Below, piece after piece: positions 25,343 to 49,351 of a stretch of 64,000 nt of DNA; the first letter of the stretch is position 1, and each line of letters begins with the position of its first letter. The notes under the pieces are model-generated. The model was not told where the DNA came from. It did not search any database and worked only from the letters and a program-made list of their open reading frames with translations. Source of the stretch: Streptomyces graminofaciens. Lineage in GTDB: Bacteria; Actinomycetota; Actinomycetes; Streptomycetales; Streptomycetaceae. Location: NCBI RefSeq assembly GCF_030294945.1, contig NZ_AP018448.1, forward strand, positions 8,838,501-8,902,500. The letters are read 5' to 3'. The position numbers were made by a program, and so were the translations under genes.

Positions 25343-26275
25343 TCAGGCGCCCCGGGGGGCCGCTACGGCGGTCAGGGTCACCACGCTGGCGAAGATCTCC
25401 TTGCCGTTCTGCCGGGCGCTGATCCGCACCTGGCCGGGGTCCGCCAGCTGCTCGGCCTCCACCCAGCAGGGGACGTCCATCTCGGCGTAGCGGACGAAGT
25501 CGGAGTCCATGCCGGTGACCGTCACCGTGTCGGGGTGTGCCGTGGCCAGGGCCGCCTGGCGGGCGGCCTCAAGAAGCAGCATGCCCGGGGCGTGGTCCAC
25601 GAGGTGGTCGAAGAGGATGGGGTGCGTGGTGTCGACCCGCAGTTGCCAGCGGTCGGGGCGGTCGGTGGCGGCGAGCACCACGTCCTCGAAGCGGTCACGG
25701 CCGAACGGCGTGAGACCGGCCGGCGGCGGCAGCGGCACGGCGCGCGCGGTGGCCGCGGTCGCGTCGGCGTACGGGCCGCGGAGCCGGTTGTAGACCGTGC
25801 GGTCCTGGATGGTGAAGCGGGAGTGTGCCGAGGCCAGGTGCCGGCCGGCGCGCTCGACGTCTACTCTCAGGGATATCGCGGCGGCGCGCTCGCGACGGTA
25901 CGTCACCTCGGGGCAGGTGATGTGCAGTTCCAGCTCGGCCGGGTCGCCGTCGGCGTACGCGGCCGCCGGGTCGAGGCTCCAGCCGAAGTCCTTCCACAGC
26001 AGCTGATGGCCGAACGGCACCTGGTAGGCGCCGTGGGACAGCAGCGGCAGCGTCTGGCGTACCGTCTCGCTGAGCAGAAGCGGGTCGTGCAGACCCAGGA
26101 GGTTGACGTAGAACGGGTGCGTGGCGGGCCAGGCGGCGGTGACGGTGAAGGCGTCGGGCGCGGTCTGCCGCCAGTCACGCAGCAGTACTTCGTCCTGGTT
26201 CGACTTGTGGGTGAAAGCGGTCGAAACCGTCTCAAAACGGTTTTCAAGCGTGGGCTGGGCAAGGCTGATGGACAT
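25343..26275 (-). CDS. AfsA/ScbA-family GBL biosynthesis protein 1
   Basis: 310 aa. The ATG at 26275 follows a GGGGGGAAC ribosome site; the upstream in-frame Met at 26314 lacks one. It has two A-factor hotdog repeats: the first with DAFTVTAAWPATHPFYVNLLGLHDPLLLSETVRQTLP, the second with THPILFDHLVDHAPGMLLLEAARQAALA. Family members condense dihydroxyacetone phosphate with a beta-ketoacyl-ACP, the first step towards gamma-butyrolactone hormones. It is divergent from an ScbR-type receptor gene and its promoter is overlapped by the receptor operator candidate at 26366-26389. Confidence 0.92.
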   Translation of the reverse strand: MSISLAQPTLENRFETVSTAFTHKSNQDEVLLRDWRQTAPDAFTVTAAWPATHPFYVNLLGLHDPLLLSETVRQTLPLLSHGAYQVPFGHQLLWKDFGWSLDPAAAYADGDPAELELHITCPEVTYRRERAAAISLRVDVERAGRHLASAHSRFTIQDRTVYNRLRGPYADATAATARAVPLPPPAGLTPFGRDRFEDVVLAATDRPDRWQLRVDTTHPILFDHLVDHAPGMLLLEAARQAALATAHPDTVTVTGMDSDFVRYAEMDVPCWVEAEQLADPGQVRISARQNGKEIFASVVTLTAVAAPRGA

Positions 26276-26340
26276 GGTTGTTCCCCCCTGATGCGGTGAC
26301 TCTCCGATGGGCACGCGCAGGTGAAGCGAAGGCGCTCGCA

Positions 26341-26395
26341 GTGACAGGGCGGCGCCGACGTGAATAAAATAGAGGTCGTTCTTTTTGTTTGTCTA
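26341..26395. promoter_or_regulatory. Face-to-face promoters and GBL-receptor operator (ARE-like)
   Basis: On plus, GTGACA (26341-26346), 18 nt, then TAAAAT (26365-26370) suits the receptor gene. On minus, TAGACA (26395-26390), 18 nt, then TATTTT (26371-26366) suits the AfsA gene. The AT-rich imperfect palindrome at 26366-26389 (AAAATAGAGGT-CG-TTCTTTTTGTT) covers both -10 boxes. Its reverse complement matches the site at 38647-38670 at 19 of 24 positions. The layout resembles the known scbA-scbR overlap of S. coelicolor. Confidence 0.7.
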
Positions 26396-26416
26396 CGGGT
26401 ATGAGGGAGTCCGCTG

Positions 26417-27043
26417 ATGGCGCGACAACGGCAGGAACGTGCGGAGCGGACGCGGGCCGCGCTCATCCACGCGGCTGCGGAGGTGTTCGACCAGGCCGGA
26501 TACCACGGCGCGGGTCTGAACGCGATCCTGCAGCGGGCGGGCATCACGACCGGAGCCATGTACTTCCACTTCAAGTCGAAGGAGGAGCTGGCCCGCGCGG
26601 TCATCGTCGACCAGGCCGCCGAGTTGCAGTGGCCCCGCGACAAGAAGGGTCTGCAACAGCTGATCGACGTGTGCCAGTACCTGGCCGTGGAGATGCGCTC
26701 GAACGTGCTGTTCCGGGCGGGCGTACGGCTGGCCGTCGAGCAGAGCGAGGTGAACCTCCTCGACTACTCGATCTACGACTGGTGGGCCGAGCAGTTCGGT
26801 GCGCATCTGGCGGAGGCGCGTGAGCTCGGGCAGCTGCATCCCGATGTCGACGAGGGTGCGTTCCCGCAGGTGCTCGTCGCCGCGTACACCGGGACGCAGA
26901 TCATGTCGCGGCTCGCCACCAACCGGGCCGACCTGCCCGAACGCATAGAGAACATGCTGCGATGTCTGCTGCCGGCCGTCGCGCCGGCGGAGGTCGTCGC
27001 CACGCTGGAGTTCCCCGGGAACGGCGGGGAAACGACTCCATGA
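26417..27043 (+). CDS. Gamma-butyrolactone receptor, ScbR/ArpA type (TetR family)
   Basis: 208 aa, typical receptor length. The TetR HTH region is RTRAALIHAAAEVFDQAGYHGAGLNAILQRAGITTGAMYFHFKSKEELA (residues 11-60), with the GxMYFHFxSKEELA ending of the GBL receptor subfamily. The ligand domain carries the conserved Trp in YDWWAEQF. It should repress its own gene and the divergent AfsA gene until a butyrolactone-type signal binds. It overlaps the following epimerase gene by 4 nt. Confidence 0.92.
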   Translation: MARQRQERAERTRAALIHAAAEVFDQAGYHGAGLNAILQRAGITTGAMYFHFKSKEELARAVIVDQAAELQWPRDKKGLQQLIDVCQYLAVEMRSNVLFRAGVRLAVEQSEVNLLDYSIYDWWAEQFGAHLAEARELGQLHPDVDEGAFPQVLVAAYTGTQIMSRLATNRADLPERIENMLRCLLPAVAPAEVVATLEFPGNGGETTP

Positions 27044-28017
27044 GCTCTGTCCGGGTGGTGCTGACGGGCTCGACCGGGTTCGTGGGGCGGGCGGTGCTCG
27101 GCGCTCTGCTGCGCGAAGGGGGCGCGGGCGGACGGGACGTCGAGGGCGGGCGGGACGTCGAGGTGCGTGCCGTGGTCCGTACGGTCCCCGCCGACGCCGG
27201 GGTGTCGGCGGGCGTGGAGTGGGTGCGGGCGGATCTGTCGGACCCGGCGTCGCTCGACGGTGTGGCGAGCGGCGCGGATGTCCTCGTGCATCTCGCCTGC
27301 CGGGTCGACGGCGACGCCGAGGAGTGCGAGCGGACGAACGTCGGCGGCACCCGGGCGATCGTCGCCGAGGCGCGGCGGGCCGGGGTGGGGCGCGTCGTCC
27401 AGCTGTCCACGGCGGCGGTGTACGGGCCCGGGCCGCACCGGGGCATACCCGTCGACGGGGTCACGCCGGCGCCGGTGTCCGCGGCCAGCCGTACCCGGTT
27501 GGCGGCGGAGCGGCTCGCGCTCGACGCGGGCGGGGTGGTGCTACGGCCCGGTCTCGTGCTCGGGGCCGGGGACCGTTGGGTCGTGCCCGCGCTCGGTGAA
27601 CTGCTGCGGCGGGTGCCGACGGCCTGGGACGGCGGGCGGGGGCAGGTGTCCGCGGTGGACGTCGGGGACCTGGCCCGGCTGGTCAGCGCCCTTGTGTCGA
27701 TGCCGGACGACGTGCCCTCCGGGGTGTATCACGCCAGCCATCCGGTGCCGGTACGCAACCGCGACCTGATGGCCCGGCTCGCGGAGCTGGACGTACTGCC
27801 GTCGGCGACCGGTGACCTGCCGTGGGACCAGTGCCTGGCGCGCCTGCGGGAGACCCCGGGCCGCATCAGTGAACGACAGTTCGAGCTGCTGGCCCGCGAT
27901 CACTGGTACGAGAGCGAGGAGATCTGGCGGCTGACGGGCTGCACACCCGGGCCGGGGCCGCTGGAGCGGTTGGGTGGGGCGGCGGGGTGGTATCGGGGGT
28001 GGCTCGGGGGCGGATGA
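27040..28017 (+). CDS. NAD-dependent epimerase/dehydratase (ScbC-like position)
   Basis: 325 aa extended SDR. The ATG at 27040 overlaps the receptor stop (ATGA). The nucleotide-binding motif is VRVVLTGSTGFVGRAVL (residues 4-20). QLSTAAVYGPG supplies Ser/Thr and Tyr near the active site, but the usual YxxxK is degenerate (SRTRLAAERL), as in many bacterial members. Epimerase genes next to afsA/scbR pairs are known (scbC of S. coelicolor) and presumably modify the signal molecule. Confidence 0.8.
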   Translation: MSSVRVVLTGSTGFVGRAVLGALLREGGAGGRDVEGGRDVEVRAVVRTVPADAGVSAGVEWVRADLSDPASLDGVASGADVLVHLACRVDGDAEECERTNVGGTRAIVAEARRAGVGRVVQLSTAAVYGPGPHRGIPVDGVTPAPVSAASRTRLAAERLALDAGGVVLRPGLVLGAGDRWVVPALGELLRRVPTAWDGGRGQVSAVDVGDLARLVSALVSMPDDVPSGVYHASHPVPVRNRDLMARLAELDVLPSATGDLPWDQCLARLRETPGRISERQFELLARDHWYESEEIWRLTGCTPGPGPLERLGGAAGWYRGWLGGG

Positions 28018-28024
28018 GGATGCG

Positions 28025-28118
28025 GGTTGCCGGGTTGCCGGGTTGCCGGGTTGCCGGGCTGTGGGGCTGCCGGGCTGTGGGTCGGTGCCGGGGCTTCCCG
28101 GCGGGGGCGCGCCCCCGC
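28025..28118. repeat. GGTTGCCG tandem repeats and GC palindrome
   Basis: An 8-bp unit GGTTGCCG is repeated at least four times from 28025, then degenerate copies. An 18-bp perfect palindrome GCGGGGGCGCGCCCCCGC at 28101-28118 follows and may act as a terminator for the receptor-epimerase transcript. Confidence 0.7.
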
Positions 28119-28269
28119 GGCTGCCGCCCGGTTGCGGCTGAGGCTCGGTTGTGCGGCACCCGGCGGCTTCGGCTGGGCGGGGGTGGGTCGCGCGGCCCGG
28201 CGCTCACGGGGTGCCGCTGCGCCCACCCGTGCCGCCCCTGGCGGCACGATTGCCCGCAGTTGGGGTGGG

Positions 28270-28395
28270 GGTGGGGGAAGTGCCGGTACACGGTCATGGG
28301 CGACACACCCGCGGCCTTGGGCGACGTCGGTCACGGTCGCCGCGGCCTTGGGCGACGTCGGTCACGGTCGTCGCGTCGTAACCGCGCTCGCTGAA
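28270..28395 (-). pseudogene. TetR regulator remnant with 31-bp internal duplication
   Basis: The minus strand reads ERGYDATTVTDVA, then after a frame change KAAGVSPMTVYRHFP, which is a TetR helix-turn-helix. A 31-bp unit containing TTGGGCGACGTCGGTCACGG is duplicated in tandem (28310-28340 and 28341-28371), which breaks the frame. The rest of the gene is absent. It abuts an SDR remnant on the opposite strand, suggesting that a former divergent TetR/SDR pair collapsed by deletion. Confidence 0.6.
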
Positions 28396-28397
28396 CG

Positions 28398-28667
28398 ATG
28401 AGCATGACCCTGGCCAACCAGCTCGGGGCCCGGGGAATCACAGTGAACGCGGTTGCCCAGGGAGCCACCCGGACGGTGACCAACGGGGCAGCCTTCGAGG
28501 CGCCGGGACTCGCCGAACTCATCGCCGGCACGACGGCGCTCGCTCGGCCGGGCGGGCCCGACGACGTCGCGGACGTGGTCGCGTTCCTCGCCTCCGACAC
28601 GGCGCGCTGGACCACCGGGCAGGTCATCGACGCGAGCGGCGGCCTGTTCCTCGGCACGCGAGTCTGA
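28398..28667 (+). pseudogene. SDR oxidoreductase C-terminal remnant
   Basis: 89 codons that read MSMTLANQLGARGITVNAVAQG and later VVAFLASDTARWTTGQVIDASGGL, the last third of a classical short-chain dehydrogenase. The Rossmann glycine motif and the YxxxK catalytic pair are missing. The truncation point lies next to the TetR remnant. The ATG is an internal Met of the ancestral protein; no ribosome site precedes it. Confidence 0.75.
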
Positions 28668-28922
28668 GCGGAGGAGGGGCGGCGCTGTCACCCCGACACG
28701 CCCAACTTGGCCAAGTGGTTGCCGAGTTGGGCATGCGGGGTGTCCGTGCGGGCAAGCGGCGGTACGTTCGCAGGACTGGGGGCCGGGCCCTCTCGTCCCG
28801 TGAACGAAAGAACGGCGGGCGGGAGCGCGACGACGGGTCCCCACCCCCGGTGCCCGGAGCACGCATCGCCGTCCGGTGTCCCGTGGGAGCCAGTTCCCGT
28901 GACGGATACCGAGGTCAAGCCC

Positions 28923-29627
28923 ATGGTGAAGCAGGTGAGAGCGGAACGCACCCGGCAGGCGCTGATCGCGGCGGCGGCCATCGAGTTCGACCGGCAGGGG
29001 TACGCCGGTACGTCGCTGTCCGCCGTGCATCGGGCCTGCGGGGTGACGATGGGAGCGCTCACCTTCCACTTCCCCGCCAAGGCGGACCTGGCCACCGCCG
29101 TCTGCCACGAGGCCGAGGACGTCACCCGTCGGGCGCTCGCACGACTCGCCCCGGCGAGTGCCCTCCCCCCGGTCGCCGAGGTCACCTTCGCCGTGGCCCG
29201 GCTGCTGGACGAGGAGGTCACCGTCCGCGCCGCGGCCCGGCTCACCCAGGAGCAGGCCGTCCCCTCCCGCTGGCGCACGGTCTGGCGCGCCGCGTTACGG
29301 GAGTCCGTGGCCCCGGCCCGCGAACGGCCCCGCCCCGGACCCGAGCCCGAAGAACTGGAACTGCTCGCGGTCTACCTCACCGCGGGCGCCGAAGCGGCCC
29401 TGCGCGCGGGCCGCACCGGCAAGGAGGTCCGGACCGACCTGGAGTGCCTGTGGGCGCTGGTGCTCGATCCCGGGCCGTCGATCACCGCCGAGGCGTGTCC
29501 ACCGGGTGCGGGCGAGTGTCCGACGGGCGCCGACAACCCGTGTCCGGTCGGCGCCCCTCCCTCACCCACGCCCACGCCCGCACCCTTCTCCTCTTCCTCG
29601 ATCGCTTCGAAAAGGCTCACTCCATGA
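28923..29627 (+). CDS. TetR regulator, GBL pseudo-receptor type, with TTA codon
   Basis: 234 aa. The ATG at 28923 (MVKQVRAERTRQALIAAAAIEFDRQGYAGTSLSAVHRACGVTMGALTFHFPAKADLATAV) aligns with ScbR/CprB-type starts and follows ACCGAGGTCAAGCCC; a GTG at 28899 is the alternative. The HTH resembles GBL receptors, but the ligand domain is divergent and ends in a Pro/Ser-rich tail. Codon 125 is TTA (29295-29297), so translation may need the bldA tRNA. This is the only TTA codon I found in the GBL-controlled cluster. Its stop overlaps the SDR start. Confidence 0.82.
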   Translation: MVKQVRAERTRQALIAAAAIEFDRQGYAGTSLSAVHRACGVTMGALTFHFPAKADLATAVCHEAEDVTRRALARLAPASALPPVAEVTFAVARLLDEEVTVRAAARLTQEQAVPSRWRTVWRAALRESVAPARERPRPGPEPEELELLAVYLTAGAEAALRAGRTGKEVRTDLECLWALVLDPGPSITAEACPPGAGECPTGADNPCPVGAPPSPTPTPAPFSSSSIASKRLTP

Positions 29628-30385
29628 CTCGACGCTGCGCGCTCGTCACCGGCGGTTCCCGGGGCATCGGTGCCGCCATCGCGACCGAACTCGCCGCCAC
29701 CGGGCACCGCGTGGCCGTGCACTGCCGTGCCGACTCCGCCGCCGCGAAGGCCGTGCTGGACACCCTGCCCGGCACCGGCCACGCCTTCGTCACCGGTGAT
29801 GTCGGCGCACCCGGCGCGGCCCGGGAGATCATCGACTCCGCGGTCGAACAGCTGGGCACGGTCGACGTCCTCGTCAACAACGCCGGCGTCCACACCGAAC
29901 AGCCCGTCGCCACCACCTCGTACGAGGACTGGCGGGCCGACTGGCGGCGCCTGGTCGACGTCAACCTCCTCGGCCCCGCCGATCTCATCTGGCACCACGT
30001 CGACCACCTCCGCCACCGACTTCAGGGCCCCCAGGGCGCGCGCATCGTCAACGTCGGCTCACGCGGCGCCTACCGCGGCGAACCCGACGCCCCGGCCTAC
30101 GGCGCGACCAAGGCCGCCCTGCACGCGCTGACCCAGTCGCTCGCCCAGTCGCTGGGCCCGCTCGGCATCGCGGTGACCGCCGTCGCCCCGGGATTCGTCC
30201 GCACCGACCTCACGGAACCCATGCTCGTCGGGCCCGCCGAGGAGGACGTACGCCGGCAGAGCCCGCTCGGCAGGATCGCCGTGCCCTCGGACGTCGCGGC
30301 CGCCGTGGCCTGGCTGAGCAGCGTCGGGGCCGAGTGGTGCAGCGGCACCGTGATCGACGTCAACGGCGCCTCCCACCTGCGCTGA
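29624..30385 (+). CDS. SDR-family oxidoreductase
   Basis: 253 aa classical short-chain dehydrogenase. The cofactor loop is VTGGSRGIGAAIA (residues 8-20) and LVNNAGV is near 85. The catalytic Ser is in NVGSRGAY and the Tyr/Lys in YGATKAAL near 160. The C-terminal GTVIDVNGASHLR is typical. Coupled (ATGA) to the pseudo-receptor gene. In GBL loci a reductase often reduces the 6-keto group of the precursor, so it may serve the hormone or the cluster product. Confidence 0.85.
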   Translation: MTRRCALVTGGSRGIGAAIATELAATGHRVAVHCRADSAAAKAVLDTLPGTGHAFVTGDVGAPGAAREIIDSAVEQLGTVDVLVNNAGVHTEQPVATTSYEDWRADWRRLVDVNLLGPADLIWHHVDHLRHRLQGPQGARIVNVGSRGAYRGEPDAPAYGATKAALHALTQSLAQSLGPLGIAVTAVAPGFVRTDLTEPMLVGPAEEDVRRQSPLGRIAVPSDVAAAVAWLSSVGAEWCSGTVIDVNGASHLR

Positions 30386-30420
30386 CCCTCACCTCCCGAC
30401 CACCTATGAACGGAGACACC

Positions 30421-31275
30421 GTGCGCGCCGCGCTTCTGCAGATCGCCGTACGACCGGACGAACCCGTCGCCGAGCGACGCACCCGCGTGGCCGGCCTCGT
30501 CCGCGCGCAGCACACCGCCGACCTCGTGCTGTTGCCGGAACTCTGGACGGTCGGCGCGTTCGCCTTCGACACGTTCCGCGAGCAGGCCGAGCCTCTCGAC
30601 GGGCCCACGGCACGGGCCATGGGCGAGGCCGCGGCCGCCGCGCGGGTCTGGCTGCACGCGGGCTCGATCATCGAGCGCGGCCCGGGCGACACCCTGTACA
30701 ACACCTCCCTGGTGTTCGCCCCCGACGGCACCCCGCACCGGACGTACCGGAAGATCCACCGCTTCGGCTTCGACCGCGGCGAGGCGACCCTGCTGGCCAG
30801 GGGGGACGAGACGGTCACCGCCGTGCTCGACGTCCCCGGGACGGCCGGACCCACCGCCGGACCCACCGCCGGACCCACCGCCGGACCCACCGCCGGACTC
30901 ACCGCCGGGCTCGCCACCTGCTACGACCTGCGCTTCCCCGAGCAGTTCCGGCTGCTGGTGGACGCCGGTGCCGAACTGTTCCTCGTCCCGGCAGGCTGGC
31001 CCGCCGCCCGCCGCGCCCACTGGTCACTGCTGGCCCGCGCCCGAGCCGTCGAGTCCCAGGCGTACGTCCTCGCCTGCGGTACGGCCGGCACACACGCCGG
31101 GGTCGAACAGGCCGGGCACAGCGTCGTCGTCGACCCGTGGGGTGAAGTCCTCGCCGAGGCCGGCCCGGGGGAGGAGACCCTCGTCGTCGACCTCGATCCG
31201 ACCCTCGTCGCGAAGACCCGCGCCGAGTTCCCCGCCCTTCGCGATCGAGTGCTCGGTGTGCCCGCGCCCCGGTGA
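30421..31275 (+). CDS. Carbon-nitrogen hydrolase (nitrilase superfamily)
   Basis: 284 aa. The GTG at 30421 is chosen because GGAG lies 5 nt upstream; the ATG at 30406 has no ribosome site. The Glu-Lys-Cys triad is visible: LLPELW near residue 44, YRKIHRFGFDRGE near 118, and ATCYDLRFPE near 168. It resembles omega-amidase-type members. A run of 12-bp tandem repeats inserts TAGPTAGPTAGPTAG just before the catalytic Cys strand. It may hydrolyse or form an amide in the cluster pathway. Confidence 0.85.
   Translation: MRAALLQIAVRPDEPVAERRTRVAGLVRAQHTADLVLLPELWTVGAFAFDTFREQAEPLDGPTARAMGEAAAAARVWLHAGSIIERGPGDTLYNTSLVFAPDGTPHRTYRKIHRFGFDRGEATLLARGDETVTAVLDVPGTAGPTAGPTAGPTAGPTAGLTAGLATCYDLRFPEQFRLLVDAGAELFLVPAGWPAARRAHWSLLARARAVESQAYVLACGTAGTHAGVEQAGHSVVVDPWGEVLAEAGPGEETLVVDLDPTLVAKTRAEFPALRDRVLGVPAPR
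30841..30912 (+). repeat. In-frame 12-bp tandem repeats in nitrilase-family gene
   Basis: The unit ACCGCCGGACCC is repeated about six times with minor changes and adds TAGP units to the protein between the DVPG and LATC strands. Confidence 0.85.
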
Positions 31276-31289
31276 CCGAGCCCCGGCGA

Positions 31290-31558: not shown

Positions 31559-31582
31559 GTTTCCCACGAAGGTGAGGCGACC

Positions 31583-32275
31583 ATGGCCGACCCGACCCCC
31601 TCACAGTCCCGCCCGGAACGGTGCGCGTCCCACCGCTGTCGCCGGGCGGCCCGTTCCGAGGCGCTGCGGCGCAGGCCCGCCGCGCCCGGCTCCCGGCTCT
31701 GCGGATCGTGCGGGCGCGCCCTCGCGGCCGACCTGGCGGCGCTGCCCGCACTCCACCACGAGAGCGAGCAGCAACTCGTACTCCCCGCACGCCAGGCGGG
31801 CCTCGCCCGGGTCACGGGCCACCGCCCGGACGCGCCGCCCGTGAGCGACGCGGCGCTGGAGGCCCGCCACGACGCCGTCGTACGCCTGGCCTCCTGGGCC
31901 CGGCTCGTGCTGGACGAGAGCGCGGACGCGGCCACCGGGGCACCGCCCGGCCGTACGGTCCCCGAACTGGCCGCCTTCCTCCACCGGCACGTCGGCTTCC
32001 TGGCCGCCCACCCCGCCGCGGGCCCGGCGGCCGACGAGATCGCCCAGGTGGCCACCGCCCTGCGGCTCGTCGTGTCGCCGCCCAAGCCCGAACTGGTACC
32101 GCTCGGCCGGTGCGTGGAGCCCGGCTGCGACGCCGAGGTGTCGCTGCCCGGGCGCGGCGGCGACGACCTGGTGCTGCGCGGACCGATGTGCGGCGCGGGA
32201 CACGTACTCACGCCACGCCAGTGGCTTCTTCTGAACCAGCGTCAATCAGCAGCGACAATCCAGGAGTCGGCATGA
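31583..32275 (+). CDS. Hypothetical protein with Cys/His clusters
   Basis: 230 aa, unassigned. The ATG at 31583 follows GAAGGTGAGGCGACC. Two terminal Cys/His groups suggest zinc sites: RCASHRCRR..LCGSCGRALA at the N-terminus, and GRCVEPGCDAEV..PMCGAGHVLTPRQWL at the C-terminus. The latter resembles a zinc ribbon joined to a helix-turn-helix-like end. The middle is helical and Ala-rich. Its stop overlaps the small HTH gene (ATGA). This pair sits behind an attenuator-like terminator and may be a local regulatory unit of the cluster. Confidence 0.7.
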   Translation: MADPTPSQSRPERCASHRCRRAARSEALRRRPAAPGSRLCGSCGRALAADLAALPALHHESEQQLVLPARQAGLARVTGHRPDAPPVSDAALEARHDAVVRLASWARLVLDESADAATGAPPGRTVPELAAFLHRHVGFLAAHPAAGPAADEIAQVATALRLVVSPPKPELVPLGRCVEPGCDAEVSLPGRGGDDLVLRGPMCGAGHVLTPRQWLLLNQRQSAATIQESA

Positions 32276-32466
32276 ACAACGACGTGCACACCCCGCGCGG
32301 CAAGCGCGTCCCCACCTCGCTCGCCGCCCTCGCCCTCGGCGTCCGCGAGGGCACGATCCGCCAGTGGGCCCGCCGAGGCAAGATCACCCGGTACGGCACC
32401 AAGCGCCAGGCCCTGTACGACCTGAACGAGCTGACCGCGCTCGCGGCCGGCGAGAGCGCCACGTAA
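32272..32466 (+). CDS. Small helix-turn-helix protein
   Basis: 64 aa, almost entirely a MerR/excisionase-like winged HTH (VPTSLAALALGVREGTIRQWARRGKITRYGTKRQALYDLNELTALA, about residues 12-57). CAGGAGTCGGC before the ATG is both the end of the previous gene and the ribosome site. Similar tiny HTH proteins partner Cys-rich proteins in Streptomyces, and the two may act together on DNA. No mobile-element genes are nearby, so an excisionase role is unlikely. Confidence 0.75.
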   Translation: MNNDVHTPRGKRVPTSLAALALGVREGTIRQWARRGKITRYGTKRQALYDLNELTALAAGESAT

Positions 32467-38641: not shown

Positions 38642-38670
38642 TTGAAAACAAAGAGTTCGTTCTCTATTTT
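38642..38670 (+). promoter_or_regulatory. Promoter with GBL-receptor operator before transposase-like gene
   Basis: TTGAAA (38642-38647), a 17-nt spacer and TATTTT (38665-38670) form a good promoter. The spacer and -10 box lie in the imperfect palindrome AACAAAGAGTT-CG-TTCTCTATTTT (38647-38670), which matches the reverse complement of the site at 26366-26389 at 19 of 24 positions. This AT-rich island stands out in a GC-rich stretch. Confidence 0.7.
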
Positions 38671-41859: not shown

Positions 41860-42615
41860 ATGTCCGCACCCACCCCCCGCACCGCACTCCTCGTCGGAGC
41901 CGCCGGCGGCATTCTCAAGGAGGTCTCGCGCAAGCTCGCCGAGGAGGGCCACACGCTCGTCCTGTTCGACCGGGACGCGGAGGCCGTGGGCCGGCTCGCC
42001 GAGGAGCTGGGGCAGCTCACGAAGGTCGAGGCCGTCGTCGGTGACATCACCGACATCCCGGCGGCGGAACGCCAACTCGCCGACATCGTCGACCGGTTCG
42101 CCCCGTCGATCCTCGTCAACGGTGTCGGCGGCGACACCCGGGTCATCGGCTACGCCGACCTCACCACCGACCACTTCGACCAGTCGTTCCTGGAGAACGT
42201 GGTCAGCAGCTGGATCGCGATCAAGGTGTGCGCCCCGCGCATGGCCGCCGACGGCTACGGCCGCATCGTCAACTTCGCCTCGGCGGGCGGCCGTACGTAC
42301 AGCCACTTCAACAACGCCGCCTACGTCGGGGCCAAGGCCGCCGTCATCGGTATGACCAAGCAGATGGCCTACGAGCTCGCCCCGACCGGGGTCGTCGTCA
42401 ACGTCGTCGCCCACGGGCCCATCGCCACCGAGCGGGTCGCCGGCGCGTTCGAGCGGCGTGATCCGGCACAGCGGGCGGCCGTCCTGGCCAAGCTGCCGAC
42501 GGGCCGCTACGGCACCGTCGCCGAGGCGGTCGGCAGCGTGCTCCACCTCTGCTCCGAGAGCGCCGGCTACTCGACCGGGTCCGTCATCGACATCAACGGC
42601 GGCCTCTACATGTGA
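41860..42615 (+). CDS. SDR-family oxidoreductase
   Basis: 251 aa. The cofactor loop is altered (LLVGAAGGILKEVSRKLAEEG in place of the TGxxxGxG loop). The catalytic set is normal: Ser in NFASAGGR (near residue 143) and YVGAKAAVIGM near 159. The end GSVIDINGGLYM is typical. It lies 6 nt after the exporter and 44 nt before the YciI-type gene. It probably oxidises a hydroxyl or reduces a keto group of the pathway intermediate. Confidence 0.85.
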   Translation: MSAPTPRTALLVGAAGGILKEVSRKLAEEGHTLVLFDRDAEAVGRLAEELGQLTKVEAVVGDITDIPAAERQLADIVDRFAPSILVNGVGGDTRVIGYADLTTDHFDQSFLENVVSSWIAIKVCAPRMAADGYGRIVNFASAGGRTYSHFNNAAYVGAKAAVIGMTKQMAYELAPTGVVVNVVAHGPIATERVAGAFERRDPAQRAAVLAKLPTGRYGTVAEAVGSVLHLCSESAGYSTGSVIDINGGLYM

Positions 42616-42659: not shown

Positions 42660-42962
42660 ATGGCGAAGTTCGTCGTCGAGTTCGAGTACAACGTCGACCG
42701 TGCGGGCCGGGAGCATCTGCACCCCGCCCACACCGACTATCTGCGGGCCCTCACCGAGAGCGGTGTACTGCTGCTCGCCGGGCCGCTGGTGGACACCAAC
42801 GGGGGTCTGCTGGTCTACGAGGCCGAGGACGGCGACGCGTTGCAGCGGATCCTGGACGCCGAGCCCTACGTCACGGGCGGCATCGTCTGCCACATCCGTA
42901 TCCGGCAGTGGGCGCCCGGCAAGGGGACGTGGGTTGCGGCGCGACGTCAGGCAGTGGCCTGA
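42660..42962 (+). CDS. YciI-family protein
   Basis: 100 aa from an ATG after CCGGAGATTTCC. A dimeric alpha-beta barrel of the YciI type, with the conserved His-Asp in HPAHTDYLRALTESGVLLLAGP (about residues 21-42) and a C-terminal strand VTGGIVCHIRIRQW. Some YciI relatives act as small dehydrochlorinases, lyases or decarboxylases. In a biosynthetic run it may catalyse a proton shift or elimination. Confidence 0.8.
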   Translation: MAKFVVEFEYNVDRAGREHLHPAHTDYLRALTESGVLLLAGPLVDTNGGLLVYEAEDGDALQRILDAEPYVTGGIVCHIRIRQWAPGKGTWVAARRQAVA

Positions 42963-43213: not shown

Positions 43214-44560
43214 GTGCTCCTGACGCCAGTTCAGCAGACCACCGCCAACCCCCTGCGCCGCGAAGCGCTGCACGCCGGCATCGTCGATCCGGGTATGGAC
43301 TCGATGCGCCTGCTCAGCGAGACCGCGATGAGGTTTCCCGAAGCGTTGTCGTTCTCGTCGGGGGCGCCCCACGACGGCACCCACGACCTCGCGAAGCTCT
43401 CGTACCACGTCGACCGGTACATCGCGCATCTGCGGGAGAAGGGGGTGCCCGAACAGCGCATCACCCGGCTGCACTTCCAGTACGGACCCGTCAACGGGTT
43501 CATCCAGGAGGAAGTGGCGCGGATGCTCGCCAAGGACGAGGACATCGATGTCGCGCCCGAGGCGATCATGATCACGCACGGCTTCCAGGAGGCTGCGCTC
43601 GTCGCCCTGCGAGGGCTGTTCCGCTCGCCCGACGACGTGTTGCTGTCCGTGTCCCCGGCGTATGTCGGTATCCGTGGGGCCGCGCGCATGCTGGACATCC
43701 CCGTCAAGGGCATCACCGAGGGGCCGGCCGGGCTCGAACCGGAGGCCGTGGCCGCCGCCGTGCGTGCCGTACGTGCCGAGGGCAAGCGGCCCGCCGCGCT
43801 CTACCTGGTCCCCGACTTCTCCAACCCGTCCGGCACGGTCGTACCGCTCGAGGCCCGGCGCCGGCTGCTCGCGCTGGCCGCCGAGGAGGGGTTCACCATC
43901 CTGGAGGACAACCCGTACGGGCTGTTCGCGAGCGACGAGGAGCGGCTGCCGACGCTGAAGTCGCTGGACACGCGGGGTGACGTCGTCTACCTCGGTTCCT
44001 TCGCCAAGTCCGCGTTCCCCGGTGCCCGGCTCGGCTATCTGGTCGGTGACCGTGAGGTGGTCGGCGAGGACGGGGCGCGGCGCACCCTCGCGCAGGAGCT
44101 CTCCAAGGCCAAGGCGATGTTCACGGTCGGCTCGTCCTCGCTCTCCCAGGCGGCGATCGGCGGCATCCTCGTCGACGCCGGCCACGACCTGCGCTCCGCC
44201 ACCCGCGATCTGGCCGCCGTCTACCAGGAACGGCTCGCCGCCACCCTCGACGCCCTCGCCGAGCACTTCCCGCCCGAGCGGTACGCCGAGCACGGCGTGC
44301 GCTGGAACCGGCCGCGCGGCGGCTTCTTCCTGGTCGTCGAGGTGCCCTTCGAGGCCGACCTCGTCGCCATGGAACGCTCCGCCCGCGACTACGCCGTCAG
44401 CTGGGCGCCGATGAGCATGTTCCACCTCGAAGGCGGCGGCGAACGCGCCCTGCGCCTCGGCTTCAGCAACCTCACCCCCGCCGCGATCCGCGAGGGCATC
44501 GCCCGCCTGGCCCGCTTCATCGAGGACGAGTCCACGTCCACCCCGGAGGCCACATCATGA
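43214..44560 (+). CDS. PLP-dependent aminotransferase, class I/II
   Basis: 448 aa from a GTG. Fold-type I enzyme: cofactor-ring segment HGFQEAALVALRGL near residue 116, VPDFSNPSGTVV near 203 (Asn-Pro), DNPYGLF near 235, the PLP-binding Lys in LGSFAKSAFPGARLGY near 263, and the carboxylate-binding Arg in ALRLGFSN near 418. It resembles the catalytic domain of MocR-type or 2-aminoadipate aminotransferases but lacks a DNA-binding domain. It would supply an amino group or amino acid to the ligases. It overlaps the ATP-grasp gene by 4 nt. Confidence 0.9.
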   Translation: MLLTPVQQTTANPLRREALHAGIVDPGMDSMRLLSETAMRFPEALSFSSGAPHDGTHDLAKLSYHVDRYIAHLREKGVPEQRITRLHFQYGPVNGFIQEEVARMLAKDEDIDVAPEAIMITHGFQEAALVALRGLFRSPDDVLLSVSPAYVGIRGAARMLDIPVKGITEGPAGLEPEAVAAAVRAVRAEGKRPAALYLVPDFSNPSGTVVPLEARRRLLALAAEEGFTILEDNPYGLFASDEERLPTLKSLDTRGDVVYLGSFAKSAFPGARLGYLVGDREVVGEDGARRTLAQELSKAKAMFTVGSSSLSQAAIGGILVDAGHDLRSATRDLAAVYQERLAATLDALAEHFPPERYAEHGVRWNRPRGGFFLVVEVPFEADLVAMERSARDYAVSWAPMSMFHLEGGGERALRLGFSNLTPAAIREGIARLARFIEDESTSTPEATS

Positions 44561-45822
44561 GCAACAACCCCACCCGCCCCGTCGCCGTCGTCGTCGACGG
44601 CTACTCCGCCGGCAACTTCTACCCCGCCGCCTTCGCCGCCTACGGCACGGACGTCGTCCACGTCCAGTCCACCCCGGAGCTGATCCCGGCGATGGCGCCG
44701 CCGGACCTCACCGCATACCGGGAGAACATCGTCGGCCACGGCGACGAGGCCGCCCTGGTCGAGCGGTTGCGCGCCCTCGGGCCCGTGTGCGTGATCGCCG
44801 GGCAGGAGTCGTCCGTGCCGCTCGCCGACCGGCTGAGCGAGGCGGTCGGCGTCCCCTCGAACGGTTCCGCGCTGTCGTCGGCCCGCCGCGACAAGTACGA
44901 GATGATCGAGACGCTGCGCCGGGCCGGGGTGCGCTGCGCACGGCAGTTCAAGACCGACGACCCGGACGCGGCGGTCGACTGGGCCGACGACCACGGCAGT
45001 TACCCGGTCGTCGTCAAGCCGCTCAGCTCGGCGGCCTCCGACGGCGTCTTCGTCTGCGACGGCCCCGACGCGGTGCGCGCCGCCGCCCGGACCGTCCTCG
45101 ACGCCCCGAACATGTTCGGCCTCGCCAACACCGAGATCCTCGTGCAGTCCTACCTCAAGGGCACCGAGTACATCGTCGACACCGTCAGCTGCGGCGGCGA
45201 GCGGTACGTCTGCGGGGTCTGGGAGTACGAGAAGACGCTGCTGCCGTCCGGCAAGAACATCTACAACCGCGACCTCCTCGCCGACCCGGACGACAACCCC
45301 GTGGTCGCCGCGCTCACCTCGTACGTCGACGAGGTCCTCGCCGCGCTCGGCGTCGCCTGGGGACCGGCCCACGCCGAGGTCATCGTCACCGACGAGGGCC
45401 CCGTCCTGGTCGAGATCGGCACCCGCCTCAACGGCAACATCAACGCGCCCTTCCACGACGTGTGCCTCGGCCACAACCAGGCGGCGCTCACCGCGCGGGC
45501 GTACACCCGGCCCGAGGAGTTCCGCGCCGAGTACGCCGGCCGGACGTACGCCCGGCTGCAACCGGCCGTCGTCTACAACACCCCGACCGAGCTGGACGGC
45601 GTGGTGGAGTCCGTCGACGAGACGGCCGTCGCGGAGATCCGCGGTCTGGAGAGCGTGTTCTTCGCGGCGGTCAAGTTCGGCCCCGGCGCCCGCATCAAGC
45701 CCACGGTCGACCTGCTGACCAGCTCCCTGCGCGTGTTCCTCACCGCACCGGACGACACGACCCTGACGGCCGACTACGAGAAGGTCCGCTCCCTGAAGGA
45801 CGCGGTGTACCGCGTCGCCTGA
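44557..45822 (+). CDS. ATP-grasp carboxylate-amine ligase
   Basis: 421 aa, coupled to the aminotransferase gene (ATGA). The ATP-grasp core shows YPVVVKPLSSAASDGVFVC (about residues 149-167), ILVQSYLKGTEYIVDTV near 197, and the metal-binding VLVEIGTRLNGN near 285. Members (e.g. BacD-like ligases) form an acyl phosphate and join it to an amine, often making dipeptides. With the GH3-type ligase it gives the cluster two independent acyl-activating enzymes and no NRPS. Confidence 0.88.
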   Translation: MSNNPTRPVAVVVDGYSAGNFYPAAFAAYGTDVVHVQSTPELIPAMAPPDLTAYRENIVGHGDEAALVERLRALGPVCVIAGQESSVPLADRLSEAVGVPSNGSALSSARRDKYEMIETLRRAGVRCARQFKTDDPDAAVDWADDHGSYPVVVKPLSSAASDGVFVCDGPDAVRAAARTVLDAPNMFGLANTEILVQSYLKGTEYIVDTVSCGGERYVCGVWEYEKTLLPSGKNIYNRDLLADPDDNPVVAALTSYVDEVLAALGVAWGPAHAEVIVTDEGPVLVEIGTRLNGNINAPFHDVCLGHNQAALTARAYTRPEEFRAEYAGRTYARLQPAVVYNTPTELDGVVESVDETAVAEIRGLESVFFAAVKFGPGARIKPTVDLLTSSLRVFLTAPDDTTLTADYEKVRSLKDAVYRVA

Positions 45823-45877
45823 CCCTCCATCAACTTCCCTTCTTCTTTCGGTACTTACATCCTCGGAGGCATCTGTC

Positions 45878-46987
45878 ATGCACAGCCGTATCGGTCTCTT
45901 CCTGTCCCCCGTCCACGAGACCGGCCAGGACCCGCACCTGGCGATCCGCCGGAACCTGGACCTCGTCGAGTACGTCGACGACCTCAACTTCGACGAGGCG
46001 TGGTTCGGTGAGCACCACACGCTGGGCTGGGGTCTGGTCGGGGCGCCCGAGACGCTGATAGCCGCCGCTTCGCAGCGCACGACCCAGATCAAGCTGGCCC
46101 ACGGTGTCGTACCGCTCTCCGGCCACCACCCCTTCCACGTGGCGAGCCGGGCCGTCCACCTCGACCACCTCACGCGCGGCCGTTACATCCTGGGCGTCGG
46201 CCCGGGCGTGCCCTTCGACGCGAAGATGTTCGGCCTGGAGCAGCCGGTGCAGCGCCGCCGCCTGGAGGAGGCCCTGCCGACGGTCCTCGAACTCGTCAAC
46301 GGCGACGAGCGGATCACCCAGCAGACGGACTGGTTCGACCTGCGCGACGCCAAGCTCCAGCTGCCCCGCTTCAGCCCGCAGGGCATCGAGGTCGCCGTCG
46401 CCACGTCCGGAACCTCGCAGTCCAGCCCGCGCCTGATCGGCCAGTACGGCCTGAGCATGACGTCGTTCGCGCTCCCCTTCGCCCTCCTCACACCGGGCGC
46501 GCCCGCGCACATCAACCTCGCCCACCAGTGGAAGTACGCGGAGGAGTCCGCCGCCGAGCACGGCCAGACCCTGGACCGCGACAAGTGGCGGATCGCGCTG
46601 CCGGTGCATGTGGCGGAGACCCGCGAGGAGGCGTACGCGGACGTCCGCGAGGGCTACGACCGCTGGCTGTTCGAGTACTTCGGCAAGGCGGCCGGGCGTG
46701 ACGTCCTCAGCCCCGACGTGCCGCGCGAGAAGGCGCTGGAGGCCCGGGTCGAGGCGGGCGGCGCGCTCGTCGGCTCGGTGGACGACGTGGTCGCCGGCAT
46801 CGAACGGCTCCACGAGATCACCGGCGGCTTCGGCACGCTCCTCGTCTACGTCGCCGACTGGACGTCCTGGGAGAAGACCAACCGCAGCATGGAACTGCTG
46901 GCTCGCTACGTCGCGCCGCGCATCACCGGCTCGGCGGCGCGCCCGCAGGAGGCGGTGGACTTCGCGATCGCGAGCCGCAAGAAGTAG
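45878..46987 (+). CDS. Luciferase-like flavin-dependent monooxygenase
   Basis: 369 aa LLM-family TIM-barrel protein (RIGLFLSPVHETGQDPHLAIRRNLDLVEYVDDLNFDEAWFGEHHTLGW, GVVPLSGHHPFHVASRAVHLDHLTRGRYILGVGPG, TSGTSQSSPRLIGQYGLSMTS). TCGGAGGCATCTGTC precedes the ATG. It uses reduced FMN and O2, which the flavin reductase 90 nt downstream can supply, so the two form a two-component monooxygenase. Possible reactions are N- or C-hydroxylation or Baeyer-Villiger-type oxidation. Confidence 0.9.
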   Translation: MHSRIGLFLSPVHETGQDPHLAIRRNLDLVEYVDDLNFDEAWFGEHHTLGWGLVGAPETLIAAASQRTTQIKLAHGVVPLSGHHPFHVASRAVHLDHLTRGRYILGVGPGVPFDAKMFGLEQPVQRRRLEEALPTVLELVNGDERITQQTDWFDLRDAKLQLPRFSPQGIEVAVATSGTSQSSPRLIGQYGLSMTSFALPFALLTPGAPAHINLAHQWKYAEESAAEHGQTLDRDKWRIALPVHVAETREEAYADVREGYDRWLFEYFGKAAGRDVLSPDVPREKALEARVEAGGALVGSVDDVVAGIERLHEITGGFGTLLVYVADWTSWEKTNRSMELLARYVAPRITGSAARPQEAVDFAIASRKK

Positions 46988-47077
46988 GCGGAGCCCCGAA
47001 GAGGCCTTCTCGCCACGCCGGGCCGTTCGTCGGCCCGGCAGGGCGTCCCACCCGACCCACGCGATCGGAAAGAACTC

Positions 47078-47554
47078 ATGCTGGAGCAACGCTCGTTCCG
47101 CGACATACTCGGCCGGTTCACCACGGGAGTGGTACTGGTCACCGCAGACACGGCCGAGGGCCCCAAGGGCATGGCGGTCAACTCCTTCACCTCCGTCTCG
47201 CTGACCCCGCCGCTGGTCGCCCTGTGCGCCGCGGACACCTCCTCGACCTGGCCGGCCATCCGCGCCGCCGGCTCCTTCGCGGTCACGATCCTCGGCGACC
47301 GGCACGCGGAACTCTGCCGCCTGTTCAGCACGAAGGGCGCCGACCGCTTCGCCGCCGGTGACTGGTCGACCACCCGCGCCGGCCACCCCATCCCCGCCGA
47401 CGGCCTCGGCTGGCTGGACTGCCGCATCACCACGGTCCATCCGGCGGGCGACCACGAGTTGGTCATCGCCGAAGCCCTGGGGGGTGCCCTGACCGAACAG
47501 GCGGACCCCCTGGTGTTCCACGCCGGCCGCTTCACGGCGCTGGCGGCGGCCTGA
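47078..47554 (+). CDS. Flavin reductase domain protein (monooxygenase partner)
   Basis: 158 aa, full length for the flavin reductase-like FMN-binding split-barrel family (FRDILGRFTTGVVLVTADTAEGPKGMAVNSFTSVSLTPPLVALCAADTSSTW, residues 6-60; DRFAAGDWS near 88). It reduces free FMN or FAD with NAD(P)H for the adjacent luciferase-like monooxygenase. GGAAAGAACTC precedes the ATG. It is the last catalytic gene before the repeat-rich gap. Confidence 0.92.
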   Translation: MLEQRSFRDILGRFTTGVVLVTADTAEGPKGMAVNSFTSVSLTPPLVALCAADTSSTWPAIRAAGSFAVTILGDRHAELCRLFSTKGADRFAAGDWSTTRAGHPIPADGLGWLDCRITTVHPAGDHELVIAEALGGALTEQADPLVFHAGRFTALAAA

Positions 47555-48394
47555 GCCGGACCCCGACGTGGCCCGGCCGGGCCCAGGGCCTCGGCTCGGC
47601 ACCCTGGTCCGGCTCCAGTTCCGGCTCCAGTTCCAGTTCCAGTTCCGGCTCTGGTTCCGATTCCGGCTCCAGTTCCGGTTTCCGGCTCCGGGCTTGGCGC
47701 CCCGGTCGGTTCCGGCTCCCGACTCCTGGCTTCCGGTTCGGCGGCCTGGTTCCGTCCGGCTCCCGGTTCGGTGGCCTGGCGGTCGGCCCTGGACGTGGCT
47801 CAGGTCCTGGTCCAGCTCGGACTCCGGACTCCGGACTCCGGACTCCGGGTTCCGGTTCGGTGGCTCGATCGGTCCGGCTCCCTACCTGGGTTGGTCGGCT
47901 CCCGGCCCGGCCCGGGTCGGTTCGGCTCCCGGTCCGGTGGGGCGGCGGCTCCGGCCTCGGTCTGCCTCGGCCCCTGTCCTGGTGTCGGCCCCCGACCGAG
48001 GCCCGGCTCTCCCGGCTCAGGCCCGGGGCCCAGCTCGGGCATCGGCTCCCCGGCCCCCCCCGGCCCGACGGTCCGGTGCGGCCCGACGGTCCCGTGCGGC
48101 CCCGGTCTCGGGCCGACGGTCCAGCAGTCCAGCGGTGTCCGGCGATCGGGTTCGGTGCCGGCCCAGCCGGTGGCCGCCCGGCATCGCCCGACTCCTCCCG
48201 TCCGCCGGGCCGAGGCCACCGGCGTCCTCGGCCCGCACCGGACCGGACCGGACCAGCCCGGACCGCACCGGACCGGCCCGCACCGGACTGGACCGGCCCG
48301 CACCGGACTGGACCGGCCCGCCCGGCAGGGCACCGGCACCCGCACCGGATCCGGTTCGTGCCCCGCGTCGACGCCCACGAGAAAGGCAACCTGC
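47555..48394. repeat. 840-bp minisatellite-rich noncoding region
   Basis: No gene is supported here. It contains 6-bp CCAGTT/CCGGCT arrays (47605-47700), repeated GGACTCC units near 47817-47850, and CGGACCGGACC-type arrays around 48235-48320. These give long open frames on both strands with low-complexity products (GSGS, EPEP, RTGP), which is why they look coding. The promoter of the second AfsA-like gene must lie here but no -35/-10 is evident. Confidence 0.75.
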
Positions 48395-49351
48395 GTGTCC
48401 CTCACCGATCCCACACTCACCATGCCCCTGCCGCCGGATGCCAGGGACGAGGCCGACCTCCACTTCGTGCGGACCGCCCCACGCCATCTCGTCGACCGCA
48501 GCGCGGTGGCCGAGGTACTGATCACGGACTGGCGGCGGCTGGGCCCCGACACGTTCCGGCTGGGCGCGCAGTGGCCGCGGGGGCACCACTTCTACGCGCC
48601 CATCGCCGGCGCCTGGTACGACCCCCTGCTCGCCGCGGAGTCACTGCGGCAGGCGTCCGTCCTGGTCGGGCAGACGTACTACGGGGTCCCGGCGGAACAT
48701 CACTTCACCATAGCCGAACTGGAGTTCGAGGTCGTGCCGGGTGCCATCCTGCTCGGCACCCGCCCCGCCGAGGTGCGCCTCGAGGTCGCCGCCACGGACG
48801 TACGGCGTCGGCACGGCACCCCGACCGCGCTCACTCTGGAGGCCGACCTCCTGCGCGGCGGCGACTTCGCCGGTGCCGGACGGCTGACCCTGCACGCGAC
48901 GCCTCCCCGCGACCCCGCCGCAGGGGAGGGCGGCGGGTACCCGCCCCTGCCCGACCCTGTCCCGCCGGCGATCGTGGGCCGTCTCGACGAACGCGATGTC
49001 GTCCTCGGTGTCCCCGCCTCCGCCGGTGCCCGCCGGGGGCTGGTCTGGGACCTGCGGATCGACCCCGGTCACCCGGTGCTCTTCGACCACCCCACCGACG
49101 AGATCCCCGGCATGGTCCTGGTGGAGGCCGCCCGCCAGGCCGTCCAGGCGGCCTGCGCCCCGTACCGCGTACTCCCCGTGGAACTGCGCAGCGCCTTCCA
49201 CTTCCCCCTCACCCTGTCCGCCCCCTGCCACATCTCCGCCACGCGGCTCCCCGCGCAGGACGCGAGCGAGGACGCCGCCGTCCGGGTCACCGCCTGGCAG
49301 TCCGGGCGCCTGGCGTTCGACAGCCTGGTGGTGGCGAGCCTGTGCGACTGA
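48395..49351 (+). CDS. AfsA/ScbA-family protein 2
   Basis: 318 aa from a GTG with AAAGG upstream; an ATG at 48420 is the alternative. Two A-factor hotdog repeats are seen: DTFRLGAQWPRGHHFYAPIAGAWYDPLLAAESLRQASVL (near residue 48) and GHPVLFDHPTDEIPGMVLVEAARQAVQAA (near 225). It differs considerably from the AfsA homologue at 25343, so it is not a recent duplicate. It could make a second butyrolactone-type signal or take part in making the cluster product. No receptor gene is adjacent. Confidence 0.88.
   Translation: MSLTDPTLTMPLPPDARDEADLHFVRTAPRHLVDRSAVAEVLITDWRRLGPDTFRLGAQWPRGHHFYAPIAGAWYDPLLAAESLRQASVLVGQTYYGVPAEHHFTIAELEFEVVPGAILLGTRPAEVRLEVAATDVRRRHGTPTALTLEADLLRGGDFAGAGRLTLHATPPRDPAAGEGGGYPPLPDPVPPAIVGRLDERDVVLGVPASAGARRGLVWDLRIDPGHPVLFDHPTDEIPGMVLVEAARQAVQAACAPYRVLPVELRSAFHFPLTLSAPCHISATRLPAQDASEDAAVRVTAWQSGRLAFDSLVVASLCD

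Follow-up and report, generated by a model that had tools for sequence, protein, structure and literature searches.

A 64,000-nucleotide stretch of the Streptomyces graminofaciens genome (hereafter the window; positions 8838501–8902500 of the single-contig 11.6 Mb genome) carries, between two AfsA homologues, a gene cluster that is linked to γ-butyrolactone (GBL) genes and lacks polyketide synthase (PKS) and nonribosomal peptide synthetase (NRPS) genes. Genes were called from codon-position GC, with the starts of the SDR1, nitrilase and IS701-type genes set by separate start checks, and families were assigned by Pfam and NCBIfam model scans. From AfsA1 (25343–26275, minus strand) to AfsA2 (48395–49351, plus strand, as are the genes below unless noted), we counted 22 genes and one short-chain dehydrogenase (SDR) remnant, in keeping with the "about 20 genes" of an original prediction made from the sequence. 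The families it had named between the AfsA homologues were present. AfsA (two), TetR (two), epimerase, SDR, CN_hydrolase, GH3, alpha/beta hydrolase, MR_MLE, major facilitator superfamily (MFS), YciI, class I aminotransferase, ATP-grasp, Bac_luciferase and flavin reductase proteins scored above the Pfam cutoffs, and the condensation-like protein matched below cutoff. The genes called between the two AfsA genes yielded no PKS or NRPS domain, again as predicted, and an Rfam scan gave nothing reaching gathering scores. Missing from the original prediction were a 576-codon IS701-type gene (38753–40483) and two small genes 5' of the GH3 gene (31583–32275 and 32272–32466).

The cluster is real as a genomic unit. 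The same gene order from AfsA1 to AfsA2 recurs in five more members of the genus (G189, G052, G230, G091 and G324; G and L numbers are our handles for genomes and loci), with the epimerase gene not called in G091 and SDR1 not called in G324. AfsA2 is the last conserved gene in all five of these whole syntenic relatives, and to its right no gene of the window recurs in relatives. Most of the set is also present in L057/G145, where the IS701-type gene lies to the left and AfsA2, TetR1 and the epimerase gene close the unit on the right. In a set of 392 genomes from the genus, that of the window included, the luciferase-like oxygenase is found at 83% identity or more in nine (next best 61%; 32 genomes reach E 1e-60) and GH3 at 71% or more in 11 (other GH3 relatives 28–46%; 35 genomes reach E 1e-20). 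All nine oxygenase-positive genomes fall among the 11 GH3-positive ones, the other two (G078 and G241) carrying the type I cluster described below. FAH is found at 58% identity or more in ten of the 392 (next 52%), and in the eleventh GH3-positive genome (G373) the contig ends after the MLE gene. Synteny and co-occurrence together argue that the grouping is not due to chance. In comparisons with G189, G052 and G091, using gene ends as first called, which lie a few codons off those given here, the ratio of nonsynonymous to synonymous substitution rates (dN/dS) was 0.06–0.54 across the 23 genes tested, and the genes are therefore under purifying selection. The original prediction had staked itself on conservation of the genes as a unit; with AfsA-to-AfsA synteny in five genomes, they are indeed kept together.

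Four enzymes form the core of the first operon. The GH3-type acyl-acid amido synthetase (32592–34307; PF03321, PF23571 and PF23572) has N-terminal, middle and C-terminal GH3 domains, all three above cutoff. The solved relatives found for it are plant enzymes (best PDB match E 5.5e-17), and it did not reach the cutoff of the OlsH lyso-ornithine lipid synthetase model (NF052613, 47.5 bits, cutoff 620). It is followed by an alpha/beta hydrolase (ABH; 34349–35233), assigned by Pfam, alignment and predicted structure, whose nucleophile elbow reads GHCLGG. The Cys is present in 40 of 42 rows of an alignment that counts five genomes twice, the exceptions being L051 and a fragment in L059, so that the earlier naming as a Cys-hydrolase was correct. 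The predicted ABH structure (predicted local distance difference test score, pLDDT, 86.5) shows a monoglyceride-lipase fold, with a TM-score of 0.84 to 6eic in a PDB fold search. Next comes an enolase-superfamily enzyme of the MLE/racemase subgroup (MLE; 35223–36398; PF13378 127 bits, PDB matches), in which KxK, D, E, D and K positions are near-invariant in the alignment; these are the catalytic positions of the subgroup. The fourth enzyme (FAH; 36485–37372) resembles AraD1/GguC (NF040903 134.5 bits, below the cutoff of 340) and had no Pfam match at E 0.001. Its AlphaFold model (pLDDT 93) has the FAH fold, the nearest structures being 5-carboxymethyl-2-hydroxymuconate isomerase and 2-keto-3-deoxy-D-arabinonate dehydratase (TM-scores of 0.62–0.69 of the query). 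For both FAH and ABH, structure models and PDB fold searches give folds, not substrates.

Four FAH proteins 48–50% identical to that of the window, among 23 listed at 45–52%, sit in another conserved Streptomyces locus (L104, L105, L106 and L113), adjoining aminotransferase-, AMP-ligase-, glutamine amidotransferase- and amino-acid kinase/reductase-like genes, families judged by eye from the first residues. This locus was considered as a substrate clue and dropped, as the substrate is not fixed by it.

The second operon encodes, after the IS701-type protein, an MFS transporter (40474–41853; PF07690 131 bits) that is probably an exporter, an SDR (SDR2; 41860–42615; PF13561 134.9 bits), a YciI-like protein (42660–42962; PF03795 54.8 bits) and a fold-type I aminotransferase resembling aminoadipate and kynurenine aminotransferases (43214–44560; PF00155; PDB 1x0m, 3aov and 2egy). 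These are followed by an ATP-grasp ligase of the L-amino-acid-ligase group (44557–45822), which reached 362 bits against a cutoff of 302 with NF005543, a model that carries the name "hypothetical protein"; its closest PDB match is 30vh (188 bits, E 3.3e-54). With GH3, it would provide the free-standing ligases of the original prediction. The operon continues with a luciferase-like monooxygenase (LLM; 45878–46987; PF00296 118 bits) and its flavin reductase partner (47078–47554; PF01613 142 bits). The nearest solved relative of LLM is 3,6-diketocamphane monooxygenase, a Baeyer-Villiger enzyme, and oxygenation of carbon by LLM is therefore as likely as oxygenation of nitrogen. Six LLM proteins 50–61% identical to that of the window stand in other gene settings. 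In the plasmid NZ_CP108701.1 (L070), an ATP-grasp gene whose DNA is 75.7% identical to part of that of the window lies amid NRPS, ketosynthase (KS) and several ATP-grasp genes.

A GH3 scan of a genome-contig collection, restricted to matches that have short exact peptides in common, returned 31 loci; adding the window and its five syntenic relatives gives 37 distinct genomes (duplicates counted once: L039/G373, L040/G201, L041/G078, L049/G241 and L057/G145). The hydrolase gene directly follows GH3 in all 31 loci, and the pair recurs in all 37 genomes. In 26 of the loci the gene caller found the complete core of four, or 27 with L062, whose MLE gene it missed and tblastn recovered. Counted by genome, the four-gene core is present in 33 of 37, Pseudomonas and Burkholderia among them. 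The exceptions are L039 and L052, which end early, L058, which has another FAA_hydrolase gene, and L051, which is without MLE and FAH. The core order GH3-ABH-MLE-(ThDP)-FAH, with a thiamine diphosphate (ThDP) enzyme gene in some loci, is kept across phyla. A GH3 gene beside those for a GHCLGG hydrolase and an MLE-type enolase is thus a tight handle for genome mining, and the cluster family may be overlooked by mining rules based on PKS and NRPS.

The loci fall into three gene contexts, with L058 outside all of them. Type IIA, that of the window, comprises 13 genomes. Type IIB comprises six loci (L051, L055, L056, L059, L060 and L069) from Streptomyces, Kitasatospora, Nocardiopsis and Streptacidiphilus, in the order SDR2-YciI-aminotransferase-ATP-grasp-LLM-flavin reductase-GH3-ABH-MLE-FAH, with all ten genes in L055, L056, L060 and L069. 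Several genes of L059 are broken; L051 lacks SDR2, YciI, MLE and FAH, has Gly in place of the hydrolase Cys and looks decayed. No AfsA, condensation-like or IS701-type gene was found in the type IIB stretches (about 20 kb each, six loci), and their MFS gene differs from that of the window. On their left side, a gene resembling desaturases and hydroxylases (52 bits with the GntB model, cutoff 380) and one resembling MutS (92 bits against a cutoff of 110) are present in five of the six, and MutE is seen in four (Pfam 384 bits in L051). A glutamate mutase step in the pathway of the window was considered and ruled out, as MutE has no match in the genome of the window and belongs to the type IIB flank. 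The same hydroxylase-MutS-MutE cassette stands apart from any GH3 gene on contig 21 of G241 (L094/L095), a genome that has a type I cluster on a separate contig, and there it adjoins a homologue of the ArsR-like regulator of some type I clusters.

Type I comprises 17 loci, typically in the order AKR-GH3-ABH-MLE-ThDP-FAH-Cond-EmrB-CHMI-SDR (AKR, aldo-keto reductase; Cond, condensation-like), from Streptomyces, Streptacidiphilus, Streptosporangium and Pseudomonas, and from Burkholderia with fewer genes. Eight type I loci have a divergent PKS gene, with a KS-AT-DH-ACP architecture in L043, the sole one that was domain-scanned; L053 has the divergent PKS gene and no ThDP enzyme. In a GH3 tree of 38 rows, the type labels require three changes in all, the minimum. 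Type IIB (five rows) forms one clade (support 100/99), the joint type II clade is weaker (94/85), and the type I rows do not group in a single clade. In L061 (Burkholderia cenocepacia), a haem-oxygenase-like iron enzyme gene after the type I core replaces the condensation-like gene, and aconitase-type genes occur in one locus only, L053. Furanomycin, which is made by both Pseudomonas and Streptomyces, was considered as the type I product and dropped, as type I loci are without an aminotransferase homologue; open-licence PMC papers yielded no matching cluster for it either.

Family models support the GBL link of the original prediction. AfsA1, a ScbA/BarX-type GBL synthase at the left boundary, reached 142 bits with PF03756 and 327 bits with NF041195 (cutoff 200), and AfsA2, a second ScbA/BarX-type protein at the right boundary, 264 bits with the latter model. 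Divergently from AfsA1 lies TetR1 (26417–27043), an ScbR-type autoregulator receptor (NF041196 201.7 bits, cutoff 150); TetR2 (28899–29627; 123.8 bits, below the same cutoff) resembles an ScbR-like pseudo-receptor. As genes for ScbA, ScbR and a pseudo-receptor are all present, GBL control of the cluster is likely. The cluster shares this equipment with known ScbA/ScbR GBL systems; it differs from them in having a ScbA gene on either side of the biosynthetic genes and an IS701-type protein encoded at the head of the second operon. An NAD-dependent epimerase/reductase (27040–28017; PF01370 79.6 bits) perhaps serves GBL synthesis.

Intergenic footprinting revealed a block that is nearly identical among relatives in the divergent AfsA1/TetR1 promoter, containing the palindromic, operator-like element 1, AGAGGTCGTTCTTT (26371–26384). 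A 23-mer around it is found with up to four mismatches in the window and nine distinct relatives. When a matrix built from element 1 was run on the window, it retrieved a second such element, AGAGTTCGTTCTCT (38652–38665), before the second operon at 27.3 bits, the next non-overlapping site scoring 8.2. Element 2 ends 88 bases 5' of the start of the IS701-type gene and recurs with up to two mismatches in seven relatives (G189, G052, G230, G091, G324, L044 and L054); in G052, an additional two-mismatch match lies inside a gene outside the unit. A short pattern derived from both sites, which both match exactly by construction, had no further match in the window with up to two mismatches.

The IS701-type DDE protein (38753–40483; NF033540 273 bits, cutoff 150), whose gene overlaps the MFS start, has lost transposase catalytic residues. 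The columns compared were those in which five annotated IS701 transposases all carry the same acidic residue. Among 25 aligned rows (15 plasmid homologues, nine cluster rows with one genome twice, and the window), seven retain the first Asp of the DD pair and none the second; the Glu of WRIE is retained in one and the Glu of EGR in all 25, and the middle Asp is possibly kept with a one-residue shift. By gene calls, the IS701-type gene lies in the same place in the same seven relatives that share element 2, lies elsewhere in the unit in L057/G145 and was not found in L042. We considered a recent transposon insertion at 38753–40483 and ruled it out because of the conserved place and promoter element, the catalytic loss and the overlap with the MFS start. 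The protein is probably a domesticated regulator.

The 15 plasmid homologues (L114–L128) were chosen by hand, 13 from 40 listed matches (436 records matched; the other 27 listed, some near-duplicates, were left out) and two from a DNA search. Within 2.5 kb on each side (1.5 kb for L114 and L115), an ScbR-annotated gene is nearby in seven of the 15, and an ScbR or TetR gene in 11; L120, L121, L123 and L127 have neither. Near the five annotated IS701 transposases, no ScbR or TetR gene was found within 1.2 kb on each side, the only range covered there. An AAAGAG..CG.TCTCT-like element (up to four mismatches, without a shuffle control) lies 60–75 bases 5' of the start codon in nine of the 15 plasmid homologues; it is doubtful in L117, L120 and L123 and absent in L121, L126 and L127. 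The IS701-type protein thus appears to be a domesticated component of GBL islands. Literature searches for such a regulator beside GBL receptor genes found nothing, and a catalytically dead IS701-type protein, if it regulates, would be a regulator type for which no literature was found.

The unit also contains the SDR remnant of 87 residues (28404–28667; last 80 positions of PF13561 only), which is not called at the same place in relatives, SDR1 (29624–30385; PF13561) and a nitrilase-superfamily (CN_hydrolase) amidase (30406–31275; PF00795 158.9 bits). A conserved 230-residue protein (31583–32275; no Pfam match), paired with a gene for a small helix-turn-helix protein (32272–32466; PF12728 23.8 bits, below the cutoff of 27; 68–94% identical in relatives), perhaps has a regulatory role; its gene is conserved ahead of GH3 in type IIA loci, as it is in the type I locus of G241. 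The PapA/condensation-like protein (37369–38574; PapA_C, PF16911, 19.7 bits, below the cutoff of 30) has the degenerate motif HPAICDG. In the condensation motif HHxxxDG, the second His is catalytic; it is kept in all 14 distinct type I sequences and in one of 12 distinct type IIA sequences. The condensation-like gene also has the highest dN/dS of the 23 genes against G189 (0.54) and G052 (0.46), and against G091 (0.463) is second to TetR2 (0.465). Because of the lost His and the high dN/dS, we leave it out of the proposed pathway; in the cluster of the window, the protein is probably no working catalyst. The original prediction had listed it among the genes for acid and amide chemistry, a reading supported neither by the 11 of 12 window-type sequences without the His nor by the six type IIB loci, in which no such gene was found.

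Based on these results, we think it rather probable, on balance, that the unit is a GBL-switched cluster for a small dipeptide-like metabolite that is built without PKS or NRPS. We propose that GH3 converts a small acid to its acyl-AMP and forms an amide, and that the Cys hydrolase, the enolase-superfamily enzyme and the FAH enzyme reshape the chain to a 2-oxo acid. In clusters of the window's type, the aminotransferase would convert this 2-oxo acid to an amino acid, LLM and its flavin reductase would hydroxylate it, perhaps on nitrogen, the ATP-grasp ligase would join a second amino acid to the oxygenated one, and the product would leave the cell through the MFS protein. The ScbR-type receptor would repress the AfsA1/TetR1 promoters and that of the second operon, from the DDE to the flavin reductase gene, until GBL accumulates. 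We infer both the order of these steps and their substrates, and the product would be oxidized and amide-linked. What stands of the original prediction is thus a conserved, GBL-linked cluster free of PKS and NRPS with free-standing ligases; the condensation-like catalyst probably drops out.

The position of the 2-oxo acid follows from a comparison of the types. The 16 loci with a ThDP enzyme, which in type I resembles benzoylformate decarboxylase (BFD), have no aminotransferase homologue, and the ten loci with an aminotransferase have no ThDP enzyme. Both aminotransferases and BFD-like ThDP enzymes commonly act on 2-oxo acids. Given this mutual exclusion, the common core most likely makes a 2-oxo acid from the GH3-activated acid. 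A tentative and rather doubtful extension of this proposal is that the clusters represent a PKS/NRPS-free pathway class common to Actinomycetota and Pseudomonadota, in which a reactive 2-oxo acid is a hub that passes to the ThDP enzyme in type I and is transaminated, N-oxygenated and dipeptide-capped in type II (a cyclic hydroxamate of the alahopcin kind being one possible end), with GBL control in the window acting via a dead, domesticated IS701 transposase. As one core feeds two later enzyme sets in distant phyla, comparing the products of type I (for example in Pseudomonas simiae) and type II would reveal the shared building block.

Several observations weigh against the proposed pathway and its control. 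Each enzyme family covers many reactions. The FAH protein had no PDB sequence match at E 0.001, and the ligase activity of the ATP-grasp protein is predicted from similarity. The hub is suggested by the comparison of two types, and the type I locus L053 has neither a ThDP enzyme nor an aminotransferase. As to control, TetR1 binding at the two candidate elements is a prediction from sequence. The searches recovered element 1 in neither L042 nor L057/G145, and element 2 neither in these nor in L063. In a shuffle control, the short pattern gave a mean of 0.35 matches, with two or more in five of 100 shuffles, a weak result.

Other readings of the locus were weighed against the same evidence. AfsA2 follows the flavin reductase gene in the same direction, is the last gene conserved in the five syntenic genomes and passes the ScbA cutoff; it might therefore be a pathway enzyme that builds a butenolide or furan part, or the unit might make a signal molecule instead of an antibiotic. 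We regard this as unlikely, as four of the six type IIB loci (L055, L056, L060 and L069) keep the ten shared enzymes, yet no AfsA gene lies within about 20 kb in any of the six, and the unit already holds one ScbA gene beside an ScbR gene. If the unit were instead a catabolic island that handles some unusual acid or amide, this would account for the FAH, MLE, AKR, SDR and nitrilase families, which often occur in pathways of ring cleavage and of sugar acids, for the mostly catabolic dehydratases and isomerases among the nearest FAH structures and for the CHMI-like tautomerase in type I. This reading, which we hold to be less likely still, fits poorly with the GBL genes, the ATP-grasp amino-acid ligase, the drug-efflux-like MFS proteins and a distribution that is patchy (11 of 392 genomes); the called genes of the window also include neither a ring-cleaving dioxygenase nor a thiolase.

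That GH3 to Cond and DDE to flavin reductase are merely two unrelated neighbouring operons appears very improbable. The second operon does begin with its own promoter element, but in type IIB both gene blocks are joined in reverse order (SDR2 through flavin reductase, then GH3-ABH-MLE-FAH), and none of the nine oxygenase-positive genomes is without GH3. A single biosynthetic unit for a dipeptide-like metabolite remains the reading we prefer.

In the open-licence PMC literature, we found no cluster that matches this gene set, which is apparently without a published description. Among known systems, the dapdiamide pathway combines the ATP-grasp ligase DdaF with amide-forming acyl-AMP enzymes, and the cluster resembles it in pairing an amide-forming acyl-AMP ligase with an ATP-grasp amino-acid ligase for what would be a small peptide-like antibiotic. 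The acyl-AMP enzyme of the window, however, is of GH3 type, its ATP-grasp protein does not reach the cutoff of the DdaF equivalog model (210.9 bits, cutoff 840), and the dapdiamide pathway is not known to have a counterpart of the MLE/FAH/Cys-hydrolase core or of the luciferase-like oxygenase. Plant GH3 acyl-acid amido synthetases conjugate indole-3-acetic acid, benzoate and jasmonate. The GH3 of the window shares all three domains with them, with GH3.8, GH3.6, GH3.12 and others as solved relatives, but it is bacterial, stands in a biosynthetic cluster and is too distant for a transfer of substrate. A Streptomyces precedent for a GH3-annotated gene in a biosynthetic cluster is RubP3 from the rubiginone cluster (PMC8487521); this is an aromatic polyketide cluster, and the likeness is one of annotation.

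Alahopcin (nourseimycin) is described in PMC9712658 as a cyclic hydroxamic acid dipeptide antibiotic. Such an N-hydroxy amide dipeptide would need an amide ligase, a flavin N-oxygenase, an aminotransferase and an amino-acid ligase, activities that are all predicted in the cluster of the window. The open-licence PMC literature yielded no alahopcin gene cluster. Alahopcin has no sequence link to the cluster of the window. Its producers are S. albulus and S. noursei; neither is named among the 31 GH3 loci.

At the left edge, an EamA transporter gene (23207–24127, minus strand) and a LysR regulator gene (24297–25217, plus strand) are often inherited with the unit, their membership being unsure: the pair is kept in eight of the 11 distinct relatives for which the left flank is covered and is absent in G324, L057/G145 and L042. 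To the right, a 3-oxosteroid 1-dehydrogenase gene (49657–51453, minus strand; 916 bits, cutoff 788) is not conserved with the unit in the five syntenic genomes. Just outside the unit, an FxSxx-COOH peptide-modification locus (52982–61144, minus strand) encodes an FxSxx TPR protein, FxsC, an AAC(3)-like acetyltransferase (112.9 bits, below the cutoff of 270) and the FxsB radical SAM maturase.

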